Assembly (NCBI RefSeq): GCF_029948125.1
Contig: NZ_JASAMB010000006.1
Coordinates: 124,001-188,000, forward strand
Reading direction: 5' to 3'
Origin: Catellatospora sp. KI3
GTDB taxonomy: Bacteria; Actinomycetota; Actinomycetes; Mycobacteriales; Micromonosporaceae
DNA length: 64,000 bases
Below the pieces are notes generated by a model. The model was not told where the DNA came from and made no database searches. It was given only the letters and a program-made list of their open reading frames with translations. Below, piece after piece: positions 41,390 through 52,325 of this stretch. Position 1 is the stretch's first letter; the number at the start of each line of letters is the position of its first letter. The translations under genes were made by a program, and so were the position numbers.

Positions 41390-41542
41390 AAACGGACGAT
41401 ACAACGTGACATCGGTTCGCTTCGGGGCGGCCCTGGGTCGCGCAACCCTTCCTTCGCAAGGCATAGTTGCGAGCGGTGTATTCCCGCAGCCCCCCAACCC
41501 CCCACCGCTGCGGGACATTGAGGAGCCTGGAAGGCGGTGGCC

Positions 41543-43414
41543 GTGACTACCCAGCGACGGTCCTGGTTGGCGCGCGTCGGAGTGGTAGCGCTGGTGTCGC
41601 TCGGCACTCTGGTGGGCGTCGCAGCCCCCGCGAGTGCCGCACCACAGTTGGACAGTGCGAGCCTCAGTGACGGCACGATCGACGTCGGCGCGACGACGAC
41701 GCTGACCTTCAAGATCAAGAACCCGGACGCCTCCGATGTGACGCTGACCATCGGCATCACCACCAGCGGCGGTGCGGCGACCTGCCAGACCGGGTGCGCG
41801 GTCACCAAGACGATCACGGCCGGTGGCGACACCGGCAACATGACCGCGAAGATCAAGGGCTCCCAGGCCGGCAACGTCAACGTCATGATCAAGGTCATGA
41901 CCGGCGGCGCCGAGACCCAGCTCGGGACCTACCCGCTGACGGTCGAGCAGGGCCAGCCCGCGGCGGAGACCGTGAGCAAGGTGTCGGGCAAGGTGGTCGA
42001 CATCCTGACCGGCAAGCCGATCAGCGGCGCGATCGTGATCCTGTCCGACGGCAACGGCAAGGACATGCCGTCGAAGCAGACCGGCACCGCGGGCACGTTC
42101 ACCTTCACGGGTTCGCAGCAGGCCCCGATCGCGCCCGGTCTGCTGGTCATCGCGGTCCAGAAGGACCCCTACGAGACTTTCTCGCAGTCGTACCAGGTCG
42201 GGGCGAACGCGTCGAAGACCGATATCCAGATCTCGCTGACGAACCCGGCGGCCATCGCCAGCGCGTCGGCGGCGGCGGCGCTGCCGAGTGCGAGCGAGGC
42301 GCTGCCGAGCGACGCGGCGTCGGAGGAGCCGGGCGGCGAGCAGACCGAGCCGACCACCGCTCCCGACGAGGGCGGCCTCGACGGCATGACCTGGATCATG
42401 ATCATCGTCGGCGGTCTGCTGGTGGCGCTCGGTATCGGCGCGATCGTGCTGCTCGTCGTGCGGCGCAACAACGATGACGACGACGATGAAGACGACGAGG
42501 ACGACGAGGACGACGACGAGCCGGTGCGCGGCCGTCCGCGCGGCGGTGCCGGCCAGCCGGTCCGCGCCGCGGCGGGCGGGTACGCCGGTGCCGGTGCGGG
42601 TGCCGCCGGCGGCACCTACGGCCGTCCCGCCGACCCGACCATGGTGGCCCGGCCCGGTGCCGACGCGGCCACGATGATGCACCGCCCCGGTGACTACGGC
42701 GTCCCGGCCCAGCGCGCCCCGCAGCAGTACGGTCAGCAGGGTCCGCAGCAGGGCCAGCAGCCGCCGTGGGGCCAGCAGCAGCAGGGCGGCTACGGCCAGC
42801 AGCAGGGGTACGGCCAGCAGCAGGGCGGCGCCTACGGCAGCCCCGCCGGCGGCTACGCGGGCGGCTCTCCGGTCGCGCCGACCAGCGGTTACGCGGGCGG
42901 CTCCCCGGTCGCCCCGACCAGCGGCTACGGCGGCCAGCAGGGCTACGGCGACTCCGGCTACGGCCAGCAGGGCTACGGTCAGCAGCAGCAGGGCGGCTAC
43001 GGCCAGCAGGGCGGCTACGGGCAGCAGCAGGGCGGGTACGGGCAGGGCCAGTACGACGAGCCGACCAGCTACGCCGGTCCGACCTCGGGCGCGGGCGGCG
43101 GCTACGGCGGCCAGCAGCCGGGGTACGGCCAGCAGCAGGGCGGGTACGGGCAGCAGGGCTACGGCCAGCAGGACCCGTACGGTCAGCAGGGTCAGCAGCC
43201 GGGCTACGGCCAGCAGCAGGGCTACGGTCAGGACCCCTACGGCAACGGCCAGCAGCAGGGCGGCGGCTACGACCCGTACGGTCAGCAGGGCCAGCAGCCG
43301 GGCTACGGCCAGCAGCAGGGCTACGGCCAGGACCCGTACGGCAGCCAGCAGGAGAACGGCTACGACGACCGCCGTGGCCGCGACGGCCGCCGGCTCGACT
43401 GGCTCGACGACTGA
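41543..43414 (+). CDS. Membrane protein with Ig-like/CarboxypepD-like ectodomain and YGQQ prion-like tail
   Basis: 623 residues. Signal peptide ([24 protein letters not shown]). Domain 1 is an Ig-like beta domain (residues 35-135). Domain 2 resembles a carboxypeptidase regulatory-like fold ([20 protein letters not shown]). A Ser/Ala/Glu spacer leads to one membrane span near residue 290-312 ([20 protein letters not shown]). Inside the cell follow RRNN, a run of 21 Asp/Glu, a Gly/Ala/Arg segment and about 220 residues made almost wholly of [16 protein letters not shown] repeats, ending [14 protein letters not shown]. Such tails resemble phase-separating low-complexity domains. GTG 41543 has GGAAGG 8 bases upstream; GTG 41537 is alternative. 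Function unknown. Confidence 0.8.
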
Positions 43415-43474: not shown

Positions 43475-43522
43475 CATGTACGCGGTGAAGACAAACTCCA
43501 GCGCGTTTGCTGCAATGGTCGC

Positions 43523-44662
43523 GTGGCCCTCGTCAACGGCATGCGAGGCCTCTCGCGGGTCCCCTCATACGTCGTCATGCAGCCCACGACCCTGTGCAAC
43601 CTGGACTGCGCCTACTGCTACCTGCCACTGCGGTCGGCCGACCGCCGGATGAGCGTGGCCGTGGCCCGCGCGGTCGCCGCCGACGGCAACGAGTGGGCCC
43701 GGCACGGCCGGTTCTCGGTGGTCTGGCACGCGGGCGAGCCGACGGCGGCCGGGCGTGAGCACCTGGCGGCGCTGATGGCGCCGTTCTCGGCCGGGGTGGA
43801 GCAGCACATCCAGACCAACGCCACGCTGATCGACGACGCCTGGTGCGAGTTCTTCGCCGCGCGGCGGCTGCGGGTGAGTGTGAGCGTCGACGGCCCGCCC
43901 GACTGCAACGACGACCGGGTCGACCGGGCCGGGCGTGCCGCGTACCCCCGGATCGAGCGCGGCATCGCGGCCCTGCGCCGCCACGGCCTGCCCTTCGCCG
44001 CCCTGTGCGTCGTCGCCGACCCGCGGCCGGGCCTGGCCGCCCGCCTCTACGACTACTTCCTCGACCTGGGCTGCGACACCCTCGGCATCAACGTGGAGGA
44101 GCGGGAGGGGGTCAACGGGCGCGACAACCGGCACGACGCGGCGGCCGTGCGGGCGTTCTGGGCCGAGCTGGCCGCGGCCTGGCGCGCCCGTCCCCGGCTG
44201 CACCTGCGCGAGCTGGAGTGGAGTCTGCGCTACCTGGACGCGGTGCTGAGCGGCACCGCCGACGACCTGCTGCCGCGTCAGCTGGACCCGATCCCGACCG
44301 TGGGCTGGGACGGCGCCGTGGTGCTGCTGTCGCCGGAGCTGGCCGGCTTCACCGACGCCGGGTACGGCGACTTCAGCAGCGGAAACGTCCTCGACCGGGG
44401 CCTGTCGGAGCTGCTGGCGCAGCCGACGGGAACCCGCTGGGTCGGTGAGTTCGTCCAGGGGGTGGAGGCGTGCCGGGCGAGCTGCCCGTACTTCGGCTTC
44501 TGCGGCGGCGGGCACGCGGCCAACCGCTACTTCGAGCACGGGCGGTTCGACGGGACAGAGACCGAGCACTGCCGCAACAGCAAGATCCACTTACTGGAGG
44601 GAGTGCTCGATCATGTCCGATCCACTCGACCTGGTGGTAGCCCAGATCCGCGACGTGCGTGA
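43523..44662 (+). CDS. Radical SAM/SPASM peptide maturase, cyclophane-forming (AmcB-like)
   Basis: 379 residues. The radical SAM cluster motif is at residues 25-32 (TLCNLDCAYCYLPL, C-x3-C-x2-C), after a VVMQPTTL strand. The barrel continues with WHAGEPTAAG (the GGEP-equivalent), HIQTNATLID and VSVDGPPDCNDDRVDR. The C-terminal SPASM region has Cys near 317, 321, 327 and 350 (CRASCPYFGFCGGGHAANRY ... EHCRNSK), which bind auxiliary clusters. This layout matches three-residue cyclophane-forming enzymes, and the partner peptide fits the family NCBI names AmcB. The start could be GTG 43523 or ATG 43541; neither has a clear ribosome site. Its 3' end overlaps the precursor gene by 50 bases. Confidence 0.9.
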   Translation: MALVNGMRGLSRVPSYVVMQPTTLCNLDCAYCYLPLRSADRRMSVAVARAVAADGNEWARHGRFSVVWHAGEPTAAGREHLAALMAPFSAGVEQHIQTNATLIDDAWCEFFAARRLRVSVSVDGPPDCNDDRVDRAGRAAYPRIERGIAALRRHGLPFAALCVVADPRPGLAARLYDYFLDLGCDTLGINVEEREGVNGRDNRHDAAAVRAFWAELAAAWRARPRLHLRELEWSLRYLDAVLSGTADDLLPRQLDPIPTVGWDGAVVLLSPELAGFTDAGYGDFSSGNVLDRGLSELLAQPTGTRWVGEFVQGVEACRASCPYFGFCGGGHAANRYFEHGRFDGTETEHCRNSKIHLLEGVLDHVRSTRPGGSPDPRRA

Positions 44663-44807
44663 CGAACTCGTTCCCCTGCTGGAGGAGGCGAGAGCAGCAC
44701 GACTGGCGCGTTCCGAAGAACCAGGCGCCGACAGCGGTGCTGTCTGCGCCTGGAACCACTTCGAGAACATCCCGACTTTCTTCAACTGGAACAATCGCCC
44801 GCGCTAG
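44613..44807 (+). CDS. RiPP precursor, multiple cyclophane type (AmcA-like)
   Basis: 64 residues. The leader (residues 1-44) is an amphipathic acidic helix: SDPLDLVVAQIRDVRDELVP then LLEEARAARLA. The core is VCAWNHFENIPTFFNWNNRP. It holds aromatic-x-Asn triplets F50-E-N52, F56-F-N58 and W59-N-N61, plus W47-N-H49; in three-residue cyclophane RiPPs the first aromatic ring is joined to the beta-carbon of the third residue. ATG at 44613 has GGAGGGAG upstream, inside the maturase gene. Precursor downstream of and overlapping its maturase is an unusual order. No protease or transporter gene is adjacent. Product and activity are unknown. Confidence 0.88.
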   Translation: MSDPLDLVVAQIRDVRDELVPLLEEARAARLARSEEPGADSGAVCAWNHFENIPTFFNWNNRPR

Positions 44808-44815
44808 CGGGCGAT
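44794..44815 (+). terminator. Hairpin at the precursor stop codon
   Basis: ATCGCCCGC-GCTA-GCGGGCGAT is a perfect 9-bp stem and the UAG stop (44805-44807) lies in its loop and right arm. It ends the RiPP operon and lies 14 bases before the convergent DUF3073 gene end. Confidence 0.7.
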
Positions 44816-45333: not shown

Positions 45334-46395
45334 CTAGACCCGGATCGTGCGCAGCCGGCCCACGTCGGCCATGCGCTGCTCGGCGAGCCGGTCCGCCGCG
45401 GTCGCCGGGGAGATCCCCTCGGTGTCGGCGAGCTCCAGCAGCCGCTGGGTCGTGTCGAAGATCTTCGTGGCGCGCAGCTTGGCCCGCTCGAAGTCGAAGC
45501 CCTCGATCTCGTCGGCGACCTGGATCACACCGCCGGCGTTGACCAGGTAGTCGGGCGCGTAGAGGATGCCGCGGTCCATCAGCAGCTTCTCCACGCCGGG
45601 GTGGGCCAGCTGGTTGTTGGCGGCACCGGCGACGATCTGGGCGCGCAGCGCCGGGACGGTGTCGTCGTCCAGGGCGCCGCCCAGCGCGCAGGGGGCGTAC
45701 ACGTCGATGTCGCTGGTGATCAGCGCGGTCGCGTCGGCGACCAGGCTCACCTGCGGGTGGGTCTCCTTCGCCCAGGCCAGCGCCTTCGGGCTGACGTCGG
45801 TCGCGACGACCTCGGCGCCGTCCTCGAGTAGGTGGGCGGTCAGGTACTTGCCGACCTTGCCCAGACCCGCGATGCCGACCCGGCGGCCGCGCAGCGAGGT
45901 GCTGCCCCAGCGGTGACCGGCCGCGGCGCGCATGCCCTGGAACACGCCCCAGGCGGTCAGGATGGAGGAGTCGCCGGCGCCGCCGTACTCGACGCTGCGG
46001 CCGGTGACGAAGCGGGTCTCGCGGGCCACCAGGTCCATGTCCTGCACGTAGGTGCCGACGTCGCAGGCGGTGTAGTAGCGGCCGTTCAGCGACTGCACGA
46101 AGCGCCCGTACGCCCGCAGCAGGGCCTCGGACTTGAGCTGGTCCGGGTCGCCCCAGATGACGGCCTTGCCGCCGCCGAGGTCGAGGCCGGCCAGGGCGTT
46201 CTTGTACGCCATGCCGCGGGACAGCTCCAGCACGTCGTGCAGGGCCTGCTCCTCCGTGGCGTAGGGGTAGAAGCGCGTGCCGCCCAGGGCGGGCCCGAGC
46301 GCGGTCGAGTAGATGCCGATGATGGCCTTCAGACCGCTGGCGCGGTCCTGGCAGAACACGACCTGTTCGTGACTGCCGTCGGTGAATACACCCAC
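45334..46395 (-). CDS. vdh: Valine (leucine/phenylalanine-type) dehydrogenase
   Basis: 353 residues; NAD-dependent oxidative deamination of branched-chain amino acids. Start GTG 46395 ([19 protein letters not shown]) has GGAG 6 bases upstream and matches homologues; the upstream open frame is not conserved. Catalytic and binding blocks: [40 protein letters not shown] (active Lys), [13 protein letters not shown], and the NAD fold [30 protein letters not shown] motif appears as [18 protein letters not shown], and [11 protein letters not shown] as [13 protein letters not shown]. It supplies branched-chain precursors; its placement one gene from bldC is shared with Streptomyces. Confidence 0.94.
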
Positions 46396-46517
46396 TGCTG
46401 GCTCCAAGGAGACGTCGCTGGCCCTTGTGAGGCCATGGCCGCCGGTCTTTCCGGAGGCTGGGAGACGCCCCGGTAGTGGCGCTCCCGCTGACAGCCTAAT
46501 CGTGGGAGGATCGCGAG

Positions 46518-47345
46518 GTGCCGTCACAGTTCGCCGCGTACCTGAGGGTGTACGAACCGCTCACCGCGTTCGGCCCCGAGCGGGAGCGGTTCTGGCGCCG
46601 ATACGTCGATGAGGGGCGGGCGGTGGGCGTGGCCGACGGCCCCGGCCGCCAGCGCGCCACGGTGCTGGAGGCGCTGGGCGCGAGCTGGTCCCGCCTGCCC
46701 GACCTGCCCGACGAGGCATACGTCATGTCCGGCCTCACCGGCCCGGCCGACGTCCCCCTCGTCTGCCCGTGGAACCTGCGGGTCCGGGTGGCCGAGGCGG
46801 CGCTGCAGGCGCGCGACGGGGTGCCGCAGGTGCTCGCCGACGCGTTCGTGCCCCCGGCGCTGGTCGGGCTCGCGCAGACCGTGGTGGAGCAGGTGCGGGC
46901 CGAGGACCGGATGCACGAGCAGGTGGCCACCTGGGGCGTGCCGCTGCGCTGGTTCGTGCTGGTCTCGCCGGCTGAGCGGGACCTGGTGCTCGAGCCGGGC
47001 CGACGGGTGCTGCGCTACCGCACGGAGATAGGAAAGGCCCGCCAGCGGGCGCACAAGGGGCTGCGGACGCTGCGCAAGACCCTGGGCGACGTGCCCATCA
47101 CCGAGTCGCTGCGGGAGACGGCGCGCTGGCTCGAATCGTTCCACCCCGGCTCGGTGGTGGAGCTGGACTACGGCGGCCTGACCGCGCTGCTGCCCGACGA
47201 CGCCCTGCGCGACGACGACTCGGTCGAGCTGGTCTCGACCGGCCTGGCCGGGCTCGAACGCGAGGACGGCGACGCGGCCACGGCGGCGTATGAGCAGCTC
47301 GTGCAGCGGTGGCGGGCGATCCAGTTGCTCGAACGAAGCAACTGA
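46518..47345 (+). CDS. Conserved actinobacterial protein of unknown function (between vdh and bldC)
   Basis: 275 residues starting [20 protein letters not shown]. Features are [58 protein letters not shown] and a C-terminal helical segment ([19 protein letters not shown]). No signal peptide or membrane span, and no recognised catalytic motif. It corresponds by position to the uncharacterised gene between vdh and bldC in Streptomyces coelicolor (SCO4090, from memory). GTG at 46518 follows GGGAGGATCGCGAG. Its persistent link to bldC suggests a developmental or metabolic regulatory link, untested. Confidence 0.82.
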
Positions 47346-47987: not shown

Positions 47988-48671
47988 TCAAACCGCTGCG
48001 GGGACCAGGGCGCCGTCGCGGAGGGTCACTACCCGGTCGGCCATGTCCATGAGGGCGGGGTCGTGGGTGGCGACCAGGGCGGTCATGCCGCGGGCGTGGA
48101 CCAGGGCGCGGAGCAGGTCCATGATCTGGCGGCCGGTCTCCGAGTCGAGCTGACCGGTCGGCTCGTCGGCGATGAGCAGCTGCGGGTCGTTTGCCAGGGC
48201 GCGGGCCACGGCGACGCGCTGCTGCTGGCCGCCGGACAGCTCGTACGGCCGCTGGTTGGCGTGCGCGCCCACCCCGACCAGCTCCAGCAGCACCGACACG
48301 CGCTGCTCCCGCTCGGCGGCGGGCACCTTGGCCAGCCGCAGCGGCACGCCCACGTTCTCGGCGGCCGACAGGATCGGCACCAGGCCGAACGACTGGAACA
48401 CGAACCCGATGACGCTGCGGCGCAGCTTCACGAGCTGGTTCTCCGACGACGACGTCAGCTCCTGGCCGGCCACGAAGACCTTGCCCGAGGTCGGGCGGTC
48501 CAGGCCGCCGACCATGTTGAGCAGGGTGGTCTTGCCCGCACCGGAGCGGCCGCGGACGGCCACCAGCTCACCCTGCCCGGCCGTGAACGACACGTCGCGT
48601 ACGGCGTGCACCACCCGGTCGCCCTTGCCGAAGTCGCGGCACACCGACTCCACCCGTACCAGCTCAGCCAC
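47988..48671 (-). CDS. ABC transporter ATP-binding protein
   Basis: 227 residues. Walker A GRSGAGKTTLLNM, Q-loop FVFQSFGLVPILSA, signature LSGGQQQRVAVARALAND, Walker B LLIADEPTGQLDSETG and switch His in ALVATHDPALM. It belongs to the MacB/LolD/FtsE group that partners FtsX-fold permeases. Its start overlaps the second ATPase gene by 8 bases; the whole operon (two large permeases, two ATPases) runs on the minus strand from 55519. Two different ATPases suggest a heteromeric exporter, one per permease. Confidence 0.94.
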   Translation of the reverse strand: MAELVRVESVCRDFGKGDRVVHAVRDVSFTAGQGELVAVRGRSGAGKTTLLNMVGGLDRPTSGKVFVAGQELTSSSENQLVKLRRSVIGFVFQSFGLVPILSAAENVGVPLRLAKVPAAEREQRVSVLLELVGVGAHANQRPYELSGGQQQRVAVARALANDPQLLIADEPTGQLDSETGRQIMDLLRALVHARGMTALVATHDPALMDMADRVVTLRDGALVPAAV

Positions 48672-49662
48672 GGCGCACCTCCACGTGCTCGCTCTCCAAG
48701 TTCAGCTTCACCCGGTCCTTGAGCGCCAGCGCCTCCACGAAGGCGCCCGGCAGCTGCATCCGGCCGGCCCGGTCGAGCACCGCGTACTCCTCGGTCACCA
48801 GCTCGGTCTCGCCGTCCGCGGTCTGGCGGGAGGTGCGGCGCACCTCCGAGGCCAGGCGGCCGTCGCGGATGGCGACGGTGCGGCGTACCTGGCCGGCCAC
48901 GTTGTGGTCGTGGGTCACCACGACGACGGTCACGCCCAGCTCGGCGTTGATGGTCTGCAGCGCGCCGAAGACGTCCGCCGCGGTCGACTCGTCCAGCTCG
49001 CCGGTGGGCTCGTCGGCGAACAGCACCTCGGGCTCGTTGGCCACCGCCAGCGCCACCGCGACGCGCTGCTGCTCGCCGCCGGACATCTGCCCCGGCCGCC
49101 GCTGCGCGCAGTAGCCGACGCCGACCATGTCCAGCAGCTCCATCGCCCGCCGCCGGGCCGACCGGCCCGAGCGGACCCCGGCCAGCTGCATCGGGGTGAC
49201 GACGTTCTCCAGCGCGGTCAGGTACGGCAGCAGGTTGCGGCCGGTCTGCTGCCACACGAAGCCGACCATGCGCCGCCGGTACGACAGCCGCTTGCGGGCC
49301 GACATGGTGAGCAGGTCGTAGTCGCCGACCCGGGCGATGCCCGCGGTGGGCACGTCGAGGCCGGACAGGATGTTCAGCAGCGTCGACTTGCCCGAGCCGG
49401 ACGCCCCCACGATGGCCAGCAGCTCGCCCCGGTCGACGACCAGGTCCAGCCCCTGCAGCGCGACGACCTCGACGCCTTCGGTCTTGTAGATGCGGACCAG
49501 GCCGTCGCAGACCAGGTGGCCGCGCAGCCGGTCGGCTCCGCCCGCCCGGTCGGCGGCCCGCTGCGCGGCCCGCGCCTGCAGCGTCGCCAGGTCGGGTACG
49601 GAGTCGTCCCGTGCGGGTGCCCCAGCCGTGCCGGCGAGCCCCGTTCCGAGGTCAGTAGTCAT
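48664..49662 (-). CDS. ABC transporter ATP-binding protein with N- and C-terminal extensions
   Basis: 332 residues. A hydrophilic N-terminal extension (residues 1-50, Ala/Arg-rich) precedes the ATPase. Walker A is GASGSGKSTLLNIL, Q-loop FVWQQTGRNLLPYL, signature MSGGEQQRVAVALAVA, Walker B LFADEPTGELDEST, switch His VVVVTHDHNV. The signature has E for the first Q and lacks the usual ARAL ending. A C-terminal extension of about 80 residues (REYxVLDRAGRMQLPGAF-like, here EEYAVLDRAGRMQLP) carries a small beta segment. ATG at 49662 touches the upstream permease stop (TGATG). Confidence 0.92.
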   Translation of the reverse strand: MTTDLGTGLAGTAGAPARDDSVPDLATLQARAAQRAADRAGGADRLRGHLVCDGLVRIYKTEGVEVVALQGLDLVVDRGELLAIVGASGSGKSTLLNILSGLDVPTAGIARVGDYDLLTMSARKRLSYRRRMVGFVWQQTGRNLLPYLTALENVVTPMQLAGVRSGRSARRRAMELLDMVGVGYCAQRRPGQMSGGEQQRVAVALAVANEPEVLFADEPTGELDESTAADVFGALQTINAELGVTVVVVTHDHNVAGQVRRTVAIRDGRLASEVRRTSRQTADGETELVTEEYAVLDRAGRMQLPGAFVEALALKDRVKLNLESEHVEVRRG

Positions 49663-52325
49663 CAGCTGTCTCCCGCGTCGAAGGAACCCAGCCGCAGCAC
49701 CTCGCCGAGGCGCAGCCGCCGGTTGAACAGGGTCTCCACCAGCAGCGCCGTCAGCAGCCCGGCCAGCACCATGCCGACCGCGCCGGCGACGACCACCGGG
49801 TCGAGCCGCACACCCACGTCGAACCCGCCGGTGTACGTAGTCAGCCCCAGCGCCGGGGCCAGCAGCTGCGGCAGCGCCACGCCGACCAGCGCGCCGGTGA
49901 GCACCGCGACCGTCACCAGCGGCGCCAGCTCGACCAGCAGCAGGCGCCGGCCCTGGCCGCGGCTCAGGCCCATGGTGCGCAGGCGCGACAGCACCTGCCC
50001 TCGCGCCCGCGCCCCGGCCAGCACCGCGAACGCGACCGCCAGCAGGGCCAGCGACAGCCCGCCGAACGCGCCCACGCCGTAGGCGAAGGTCAGCACGCCG
50101 TTCACGCCGGTCTGCTCCAGCCCTTCCCGGTACCGGGCCCAGGTGTTCACCCGGGTGGTCAGGTCGGGGCCGCCGACGGGGCTGCCGATCGAGGTGACCC
50201 AGCGCAGCTGGCCCTCGTCTCCGGCCTTGACGATCGCCGCCTGGTCGGCGTGCCCCGCCACCAGGAAGCCGTTCGGGCTGATCACCTTGTCGCTGCGGAC
50301 GTCGAGCGCCTGCCACGGGATGACGATGAAGCTGGAGCTGTCGGGCAGGCCCGGGAAGCGGTCGACGACTCCGCCGACGCCGAACTCGTACACCCGGCCC
50401 TGGAGGTCGGCAGCGGCGCTGGTGTGGCCCTTGAACTGCTCGTACACCGAGGGTGAGAGCAGCGCCGGGGCCGGTCGGCCGGGTCGGGCGTCGACGAAGC
50501 CGGGCGGCAGGTCCAGATCGCGGCCGGAGTCGCGGATCACCTGGGCCAGCCTGGGCGCGTCGACGACCACCACGTAGAAGACGCCGAGCCGTTCGGCGCC
50601 GATCTCCTTGGAGGCGGTGACCGGGGTGGGCGGCTGCGCCAGCACCGGCGCGACCGACCGGACGCCCGGGACGGCCGCCAGCGCGTCGGCGGTGTCGGGG
50701 GCGAAGAAGAAGCCGTTCACGGACAGGTCGCCGGGGACCGCCTGGTCGGCCGCGCGGTCGCGACCCGCGTCGACCGTGCCGGAGACGCCGAGGCTGAACA
50801 CCGTGGTGCAGATCGCGACGACCAGCACCGCGATCGGGCCGACGGCGGCGGGGGCGGTGCGGCCGGAGCGGGCCAGCCCGAGGAAGCCCACGGCGCTGCG
50901 GCCGCGCGAGGCCAGTCGGCTGACCAGGCCCAGCGGCGCCGGGATCGCCCGCAGCGTGAGCACGGCGGCGCCCGCCGCCAGCAGGACCGGCACCGCGGCC
51001 AGGTAGACGTCGACGCTCTCGGCGGCGTCCAGGCCCCGGCGGCGCACCAGCCACACGCCCAGCGCACCGAGAACCAGCAGGCTCAGTTCGGCGGTGCGGC
51101 GCTTGGCGCCGACCTTCGACCCGGCCAGGTCCTCCCGCTCGCCGGAGAACGACAGCCGGCGCAGCGTCAGCATCGCGATCACCGGCATCGCCAGTACCGC
51201 GAGCAGTGCGAACAGCACCATCACGGTGAGCGTGTCGGCGGGGCGGCCCGGCAGCGCGGCACCGGCCAGCCCGCCGAGGACCGCGCCCGGCAGCACCACG
51301 GGCAGGACCTCGGCCAGCGTCCGGCCGCCGATCTCCAGCACCGAGCCGCCCCGGGCCCGCAGCAGCGCGAACTCGGACCGCCGCCGGGAGACCGCCAGCC
51401 GCGCCGCCAGCAGCACCAGGCCGGCCAGCGTCGCCAGCGTCCCGGCCTGCACCACCGCCAGCAGCGACTGCCCGGCGCGGGCGGCGTCGGCGAAGCGCGA
51501 CAGCGCGGTGTCCAGGCCGCCCTCCATCTGCGCCTCGATGCCCTGCGAGCGCGCCGCGTACAGGGCCGACACCATGCTGGGCAGCACCGCCATGTCCAGG
51601 TGCTCCGGGCCGACCCGGTAGCGCAGGTCGTACAGCGTCGGAACGTCTACGTAGTGGGCGCGGTCGACACCTGCCGTGTCGGTGAAGAAGATCGCCTGGA
51701 ACGCCTCGCCGTCGTCGCGCGGCTGGTAGGGCTTCAGCGCCAGCGCGGCGGTGTCCCAGAAGCCCGCCTTCGGGTCGACCGGCTCGACGATGCCGACGAC
51801 CTGGACGCCGCCCGCCGCGCCGAACCGGTAGCGGCTGCCCACCTGGTAGTGCAGCGCGGTGGCCTCGGCGGGGGTGATCACGATCTCGATCGGGAAGCCG
51901 GGTTCGTCCAGCGTCGCCGGCCAGCGTCCCTCGACCAGCCGGGTCTCCTGCTGCAGGCCGCTGGCGGCGCGCAGGCTGAACTGGGCCTTCGACGGCAGCC
52001 CGGTGTCGGTGGCCCACGACTCGGCCAGGTCGGTGTAGACCGTCCACCAGGACTGGCTGATCCGGTTGCGCAGGTCCGGGTAGAACACGTCCCGCTGCGA
52101 CTGGAGCCGGTTCGGCATGGTCCGGGTGGACCGGTTGGCCGGGAAGCCGCCCCGGTAGTTCACGTCCTTCACCAGGTACGGCAGGGACGCGACGCGGTCG
52201 CGCAGCGCCTGGTCGGTCAGGCCGTTGGCCACCCGCGGGGTGCCGATCACCAGCACCCCGGCCACCGCCGTGAGCAGCCCGAGCAGGACGAGCTGCCCGA
52301 GCGAAGCCCGCATCCGCCTTCTCAT
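49662..52325 (-). CDS. FtsX-like ABC permease (large)
   Basis: 887 residues. N-terminal span (LGQLVLLGLLTAVAGVLVI), a large ectodomain (residues 30-240), then a first FtsX domain (SLLAVVQAGTLATLAGLVLL, RRRSEFALLRARGGSVLEIG). Central spans include LAAVPVLLAAGAAVLTL. A second ectodomain is followed by the C-terminal FtsX domain (LSRLRTMGLSRGQGRRLLLV) ending in RLGEVLRLGSFDAGDS. The double-FtsX layout is that of actinobacterial macrolide/lipid-type exporters. ATG overlaps the stop of the preceding permease gene (ATGA), so the permeases are coupled. Confidence 0.9.
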   Translation of the reverse strand: MRRRMRASLGQLVLLGLLTAVAGVLVIGTPRVANGLTDQALRDRVASLPYLVKDVNYRGGFPANRSTRTMPNRLQSQRDVFYPDLRNRISQSWWTVYTDLAESWATDTGLPSKAQFSLRAASGLQQETRLVEGRWPATLDEPGFPIEIVITPAEATALHYQVGSRYRFGAAGGVQVVGIVEPVDPKAGFWDTAALALKPYQPRDDGEAFQAIFFTDTAGVDRAHYVDVPTLYDLRYRVGPEHLDMAVLPSMVSALYAARSQGIEAQMEGGLDTALSRFADAARAGQSLLAVVQAGTLATLAGLVLLAARLAVSRRRSEFALLRARGGSVLEIGGRTLAEVLPVVLPGAVLGGLAGAALPGRPADTLTVMVLFALLAVLAMPVIAMLTLRRLSFSGEREDLAGSKVGAKRRTAELSLLVLGALGVWLVRRRGLDAAESVDVYLAAVPVLLAAGAAVLTLRAIPAPLGLVSRLASRGRSAVGFLGLARSGRTAPAAVGPIAVLVVAICTTVFSLGVSGTVDAGRDRAADQAVPGDLSVNGFFFAPDTADALAAVPGVRSVAPVLAQPPTPVTASKEIGAERLGVFYVVVVDAPRLAQVIRDSGRDLDLPPGFVDARPGRPAPALLSPSVYEQFKGHTSAAADLQGRVYEFGVGGVVDRFPGLPDSSSFIVIPWQALDVRSDKVISPNGFLVAGHADQAAIVKAGDEGQLRWVTSIGSPVGGPDLTTRVNTWARYREGLEQTGVNGVLTFAYGVGAFGGLSLALLAVAFAVLAGARARGQVLSRLRTMGLSRGQGRRLLLVELAPLVTVAVLTGALVGVALPQLLAPALGLTTYTGGFDVGVRLDPVVVAGAVGMVLAGLLTALLVETLFNRRLRLGEVLRLGSFDAGDS

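Follow-up and report, generated by a model that had tools for sequence, protein, structure and literature searches.

The closest described systems are the AmcA/AmcB pairs of the AMC triceptides, whose founding paper is presumably that of Phan and Morinaka 2022 (ACS Chem Biol 17:3284). In the parts of PMC11002830 available to us, the characterized triceptide enzymes join Trp C7 or Phe C4 to the Cβ of Asn or Asp, and OscB joins Trp or Phe to Asn or Asp. According to the available part of PMC12026744, dynobactin and darobactin are the only triceptides or related peptides with three-residue crosslinks whose activities are well understood. The pair in the window (the whole 64-kb stretch of DNA analyzed here, from a genome of 8.2 Mb in 96 contigs) resembles the AmcA/AmcB systems (NF041718, NF041722) in the cut-offs passed, the two-gene layout and the multiple C-terminal aromatic-x-Asn motifs. 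Nothing in the window departs from that family, and the window system is, as judged by family models, a member of the known AMC triceptides. The AmcA_3b systems (NF041723) share with it the purM-adjoining site, AmcB orthologues and three similarly spaced triplets, but differ by a core such as RPFEDAFPTFYQF[ST]N, and the window peptide reaches only 25.8 bits against the AmcA_3b cut-off of 65. The AmcA_1 systems (NF041721) are alike in having an AmcB-family maturase and a multi-triplet peptide; their core reads FDNRPTWDN.GKFDSRPGWDNWNKK in 17 forms among 28 sequences, and both AmcA_1 precursors that were scored (L009 and L162) exceed the AmcA_1 cut-off. At two AmcA_1 loci (L142 and L162), the maturases are 41-43% identical to the window AmcB, and neither purM nor DUF3073 was found there. 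The GrrM/OscB maturases (TIGR04261) are alike as radical SAM/SPASM enzymes, but their model gives the window enzyme 233.5 bits, under its cut-off of 310. The features of the locus are as follows.

43523..44662, + strand: amcB, predicted radical SAM/SPASM cyclophane-forming maturase; GTG start, 379 aa; NF041718 match
44613..44807, + strand: amcA, 64-aa AmcA precursor; ATG start, in a different frame from amcB; NF041722 match
44613..44738, + strand: AmcA leader, residues 1-42; divergent, pN/pS 0.55 (81 sequences)
44739..44804, + strand: AmcA core, residues 43-64, AVCAWNHFENIPTFFNWNNRPR; pN/pS 0.017 (81 sequences)
44760..44768, + strand: triplet 1, F50-E-N52, predicted ring; FEN in type 3a, FED or FSD in 3b-like cores, WTD in the g29 variant
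44778..44786, + strand: triplet 2, F56-F-N58, predicted ring; F[FY]N in type 3a, FYQ, FYE or FWE in 3b-like cores, FTE in the g29 variant
44787..44795, + strand: triplet 3, W59-N-N61, predicted ring; WNN in type 3a, F[ST]N in 3b-like cores, FSN in the g29 variant

On the + strand, the reading frame of amcB stays open between 43424 and its stop codon at 44662. Since the match to the AmcB model starts only with residue 43 of this longer ORF, the in-frame GTG at 43523 is a plausible start of amcB. NF041718 matched the maturase with 505 bits (E 1.1e-151; curated equivalog cut-off 425) and NF041722 (AmcA_3a) matched the peptide with 107.3 bits (cut-off 65). The AmcB/AmcA assignment, which the preliminary description had made with the advice to search both proteins against such models, is thus borne out by curated NCBIfam equivalog cut-offs on both sides, and its two-gene cyclophane RiPP locus at 43523..44807 is verified for both genes by ORFs and family models. 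A maturase outside the cyclophane-forming clades would, by that description, have refuted the assignment, and this was not the case: the two highest scores came from AmcB and, as second-best model, GrrM/OscB. The dynobactin and darobactin maturase models gave 107 and 73 bits, far under their cut-offs, and the model of the ranthipeptide maturase PapB gave 44 bits. Numbered from 43523, the radical SAM motif CNLDCAYC holds C25, C29 and C32, and the SPASM auxiliary-cluster cysteines, expected near residues 317-350, are present as C317, C321, C327 and C350. All seven Fe-S cysteines are invariant among 48 aligned maturases, one of which is a fusion and two of which are paralogues. The fold of AmcB is predicted with confidence (mean pLDDT 92.1, pTM 0.89), and the nearest solved folds are, in order, ChlB with leader, anSME (the anaerobic sulfatase maturase), 5why (a sactipeptide thioether maturase) and SuiB. 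By AmcB, the top named relative among the best 80 of 458 candidates is Catellatospora tritici (94%), which points to the genus Catellatospora in the family Micromonosporaceae.

amcA overlaps amcB by 50 nt in the window, in another frame. When the most upstream ATG is assumed to be the amcA start, the two genes overlap by 17-71 nt at all 80 named loci, and by 32 nt at 61 of them, which is likely explained by translational coupling. The leader has a stretch resembling L..LL.EA..AR..R.E, as judged by eye. Just 5' of the amcB GTG, at 43505-43519, lies GTTTGCTG[CG]AATGGT, which is common to the window and five Catellatospora loci; a promoter or a leaderless start at GTTTGCTG[CG]AATGGT is possible. 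At one further locus (L158, 1444-2730; G136, a genome assembled from a metagenome under the name Dactylosporangium sp.), amcB continues without a frame change into a terminus resembling that of AmcA, TYYNWNNRSR, and the core of this fusion has two triplets (shuffle P 0.17). A database search with this terminus yielded a single, identical protein, which came from a single metagenome-assembled genome. We set the fusion aside as evidence for the pairing of maturase and precursor, because it is a single protein from one such genome and may result from a frameshift error.

The tail of the window AmcA reads VCAWNHFENIPTFFNWNNRPR; the preliminary description had numbered W47, F50/N52, F56/N58 and W59/N61 correctly and left out the final Arg. 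AVCAWNHFENIPTF[FY]NWNNRPR makes up the 22 C-terminal residues in 79 of 81 sequences, with the end AVCAWNHFENIPTFYNWNNRPR in 71 and the F form in eight, and the two exceptions carry I53V and an extra Gln, respectively. The named loci are the best 80 of 458 candidates, so this sample favors core identity. Core extraction was keyed on CAWNH and failed at none of the loci, and a looser pattern gave the same tails in all 80. In a protein search limited to candidates that have exact words in common with the query, all 120 of the matches listed (of 174) carry CAWNHFENIPTF[FY]NWNNRPR. By NG86 proportions over the 81 sequences, the core has a pN of 0.0055 and a pS of 0.321 (pN/pS 0.017), and the leader a pN of 0.274 and a pS of 0.502 (pN/pS 0.55). 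The corresponding ratios are 0.30 for AmcB, 0.21 for PurF, 0.25 for PurM, 0.26 for the neighboring dehydrogenase, 0.27 for hyp275 and 0.36 for DUF3073, which makes the core about twelve times more constrained than the whole of PurF. The core pS of 0.32 is near the bottom of the neighbors' span of 0.31-0.42, and since it is within that span, it is mainly the peptide, not the DNA, that is held constant. Of 1836 segments of the same length in AmcB and the neighbors, 17 are equally conserved, 13 in PurM and four in PurF; constraint on the AmcA tail thus equals that on the best-conserved segments of these two enzymes. The tail of AmcA is under extreme purifying selection, and the leader is not. A 9-bp stem with a 4-base loop and no T run lies over the amcA stop codon (44794-44815), and visual comparison suggests that C. 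tritici (L044) retains a similar one. This hairpin (44794-44802 with 44807-44815) was rejected as the cause of core conservation: its downstream part differs in most of 40 sequences, and the synonymous divergence of the core falls inside the range of the neighbors, toward its lower limit.

The genes neighboring the pair in the window were compared by tblastn with the 80 named loci. DUF3073 lies downstream of amcA and convergent to it in all 80, purine genes occupy the opposite flank in 79, and purM is upstream of amcB on the same strand in 73; the purM-purF block is inverted in six (Catellatospora, Catelliglobosispora), and one locus is interrupted by a contig end. Twenty extra genomes, picked because AmcA_3a was missing, weak or worth checking, gave 21 new loci. 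By hand count, 19 of these are at the amc site, 17 next to purM and two contig-limited ones next to DUF3073 and the dehydrogenase, and the remaining two are paralogues. At four of the 17 purM-adjoining loci (g17, g6), bldC and hyp275 replace DUF3073 downstream. At an empty site (L163), purM and DUF3073 flank about 0.9 kb without an amcBA match; this interval carries an ORF that we read as acetyltransferase-like. In the window, the gaps beside the pair measure 108 bp upstream and 21 bp downstream, too small for another gene, and 3 kb farther downstream, at 47988-52325, are genes that we interpret as an ABC transporter. The ABC-like ATPase is near amcBA at only 12 of the 80 named loci; as the gaps leave no space for another gene, any removal of the leader and any export would likely depend on genes elsewhere. 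A strain-specific cluster with its own transporter and protease finds no support, on the same two observations.

Trees of AmcB, PurM, PurF, the dehydrogenase and hyp275 were built with FastTree for the 70 loci having all genes. None of the 21 strong AmcB splits (support of at least 0.95) conflicts with any of the four neighbor genes, whose own strong splits show no conflicts among themselves. AmcB has 32-39 of 67 splits in common with each neighbor, compared with 26-33 among the neighbors and 0.2 between label-shuffled AmcB and PurF, and the patristic correlation of AmcB with the neighbors is 0.87-0.90, the neighbors' own range being 0.76-0.93. amcB has descended at one site without strong conflict with its neighbors. 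A tree of the dehydrogenase with 38 rows, 26 with amcBA and 12 without (three short carrier rows were dropped by the program), places every carrier on one side of one branch, with one change against 10.4 for shuffled labels. The separating branch has an SH-aLRT of 80, from one gene, a short search and a midpoint root. The 12 rows lacking AmcB come from six of the nine AmcB-less genera; the tree does not include g5, g28 and g31, for which the retrieved sequence contained no dehydrogenase. The result fits a single gain at the base of a crown clade with no loss among the rows used, on the basis of one gene and a weakly supported branch.

AmcB exceeds its cut-off in 312 of 354 Micromonosporaceae genomes and AmcA_3a in 297, the latter once per genome among the matches listed, with G248 and G271 as exceptions. 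Counted by hand, the remaining 42 genomes consist of 38 in nine genera (g3, g5, g15, g16, g22, g28, g31, g36 and g41, one genome being assigned to g41 from an unlisted row) and four problem assemblies, of which G001 and G002 have partial matches on small contigs and G137 and G329 are 82 and 86% complete. In a sample of the order, 68 of 397 genomes match, every one of them in Micromonosporaceae. amcBA is a near-universal, single-site locus of this family. One genome (G352; 630 contigs, 94% complete) exceeds the AmcB cut-off solely via a paralogue, which shares 43% identity with the AmcB of the window, and showed no copy at the amc site; this counts against strict universality.

The diverged orthologues at the amc site bear directly on the ring pattern. 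Thirteen complete diverged cores could be read, apart from two truncated by contig ends and the L158 fusion. Ten are 3b-like, e.g. RPFEDAFPTFYQF[ST]N, RAFEDSFPTFYEFTN and RAFSDAFPTFWEFSN, and the two of these ten whose precursors were scored (L156 and L147) exceed the AmcA_3b cut-off. The other three, from all three genomes of genus g29 (L151, L152 and L155), read RWTDVFTTQFTEFSNRPR, with one extra Leu in L151. As the g29 precursor that was scored (L155) reaches 21.5 and 16.2 bits, under both the AmcA_3a and the AmcA_3b cut-offs of 65, the g29 core looks like an unmodeled third variant. All 13 keep three aromatic-x-(N/D/Q/E) triplets in the same arrangement: a first triplet, four to five residues (three in type 3a), two adjacent triplets and a short tail. 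In the window, the C-terminal core beside the maturase has the aromatic-x-x triplets FEN, FFN and WNN. Three aromatic-x-Asn triplets in one sequence are marginal by shuffling (P about 0.05), and allowing N/D/Q/E as the third residue gives P from 0.01 to 0.09 for single cores; the argument is carried by the family-model scores and the repeated, conserved pattern. The preliminary description had counted three or four possible rings. The triplets at F50, F56 and W59 have counterparts in all 13 diverged cores and W47-N-H49 in none, so that three rings are predicted, F50-N52, F56-N58 and W59-N61, and on these sequences three rings are a better prediction than four.

A fourth ring, from W47 to the Cβ of H49, is an alternative that the preliminary description had allowed for, and we regard it as rather unlikely. 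Within type 3a, CAWNH and hence W47-N-H49 are as invariant as the three triplets (81 of 81), and a Trp stands three residues before the first-triplet Phe (WRPF or WRAF) in six of the 13 diverged orthologues; in these six, however, the third residue is Pro or Ala (W-R-P or W-R-A), four others have P-R-P before the Phe (PRPF), and nothing equivalent is present in the three g29 cores. Trp is a standard first residue of triceptide motifs and links from His or Tyr to the Cβ of Ala are known, but His as a third residue is absent among the linkages in the available parts of PMC11002830. Cys45 is likewise present in 81 of 81 type-3a sequences, and the nearer solved folds include 5why, a maturase that makes sactipeptide thioethers; both would suit another type of link made by AmcB, e.g. 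an ether or a thioether via Cys45. Such chemistry seems very unlikely to us, since Cys45 has no counterpart in any of the 13 complete diverged cores at the amc site and the top model scores are those of cyclophane-forming families (AmcB 505 and GrrM/OscB 233 bits, against 44 for PapB). A different kind of alternative concerns the fate of the product: the modified peptide may be secreted as an antagonist, such as an antibiotic or a bacteriocin. The dynobactin and darobactin maturase models do match AmcB, if far under their cut-offs, the products of these systems are antibacterial according to the available parts of PMC11002830 and PMC9055067, and the window has its ABC transporter-like genes 3 kb from amcBA. 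Nevertheless, these transporter genes are near amcBA at only 12 of 80 loci, the gaps beside the pair in the window fit no further gene, and the core is nearly invariant across many genera. Weapons generally diversify, and we consider an antagonistic product doubtful.

A frozen core, a drifting leader, one inherited site and presence in most species fit a conserved cellular role better than an antibiotic, although conservation by itself is no proof of a housekeeping role. We favor, as the probable reading of these sequences, that AmcB staples AmcA into three rings and that the product has a conserved, housekeeping-type role. AmcA would be the likely substrate of AmcB and acquire three three-residue rings. 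By analogy with characterized triceptide maturases, reduced SAM would yield a 5'-deoxyadenosyl radical, which would remove a β hydrogen from the third residue of a triplet, here Asn; the Asn β carbon would then bond to the Phe or Trp ring two residues earlier, and the auxiliary cluster would accept the electron. Each ring would cost two hydrogens, 6 Da in total for three rings. The divergent N-terminal part may serve as a leader, cleaved by a protease encoded elsewhere, and the rigid tail may act in a cellular role common to Micromonosporaceae rather than as a variable antibiotic. In a more specific form, the three-ring peptide would have been gained once, at the base of the crown Micromonosporaceae, by insertion next to purM, and would have stayed almost unchanged across many genera because the tail with the rings has a fixed partner in the cell or its envelope; we hold the chances of this scenario to be evenly balanced. 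A signal, a morphogen or a peptide cofactor would be the candidate roles within it. If the peptide is such a housekeeping RiPP, the usual RiPP pattern is inverted, the core being frozen while the leader drifts.

A literature search, judged mostly by titles, returned no title evidently on this locus. Unless already contained in Phan and Morinaka 2022, the single inherited site with its likely single gain would be new, as would the orthologous relationship between the 3a, 3b-like and g29 cores and the intensity of the selection acting on the core. A triceptide at one fixed site in most species of a large family makes the purpose of such peptides testable. Furthermore, the natural series FEN/FYN/WNN, FED/FYQ/FTN and WTD/FTE/FSN provides a ready substrate set for the ring rule.

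Several further genes were observed around the pair and elsewhere in the genome. The amino-acid dehydrogenase at 45334-46527 on the - strand of the window is near amcBA at all 80 named loci and resembles the tryptophan dehydrogenase ScyB (341 bits, under the cut-off of 600). The + strand gene at 41537-43414 encodes a carboxypeptidase-regulatory-like domain followed by a long Gly/Tyr/Gln repeat tail, and a stretch like the first 300 residues of this protein, often with only 26-36% identity, is near purF at most named loci. The genome of the window also holds a second triceptide-like pair (G000:C19, ~79038-80105; L040:1468-2973). Its small upstream ORF, which no NCBIfam model matched, ends with DFSDWSQFNQWPQSW, and its maturase passes the GrrM/OscB cut-off of 310 with 387.6 bits.
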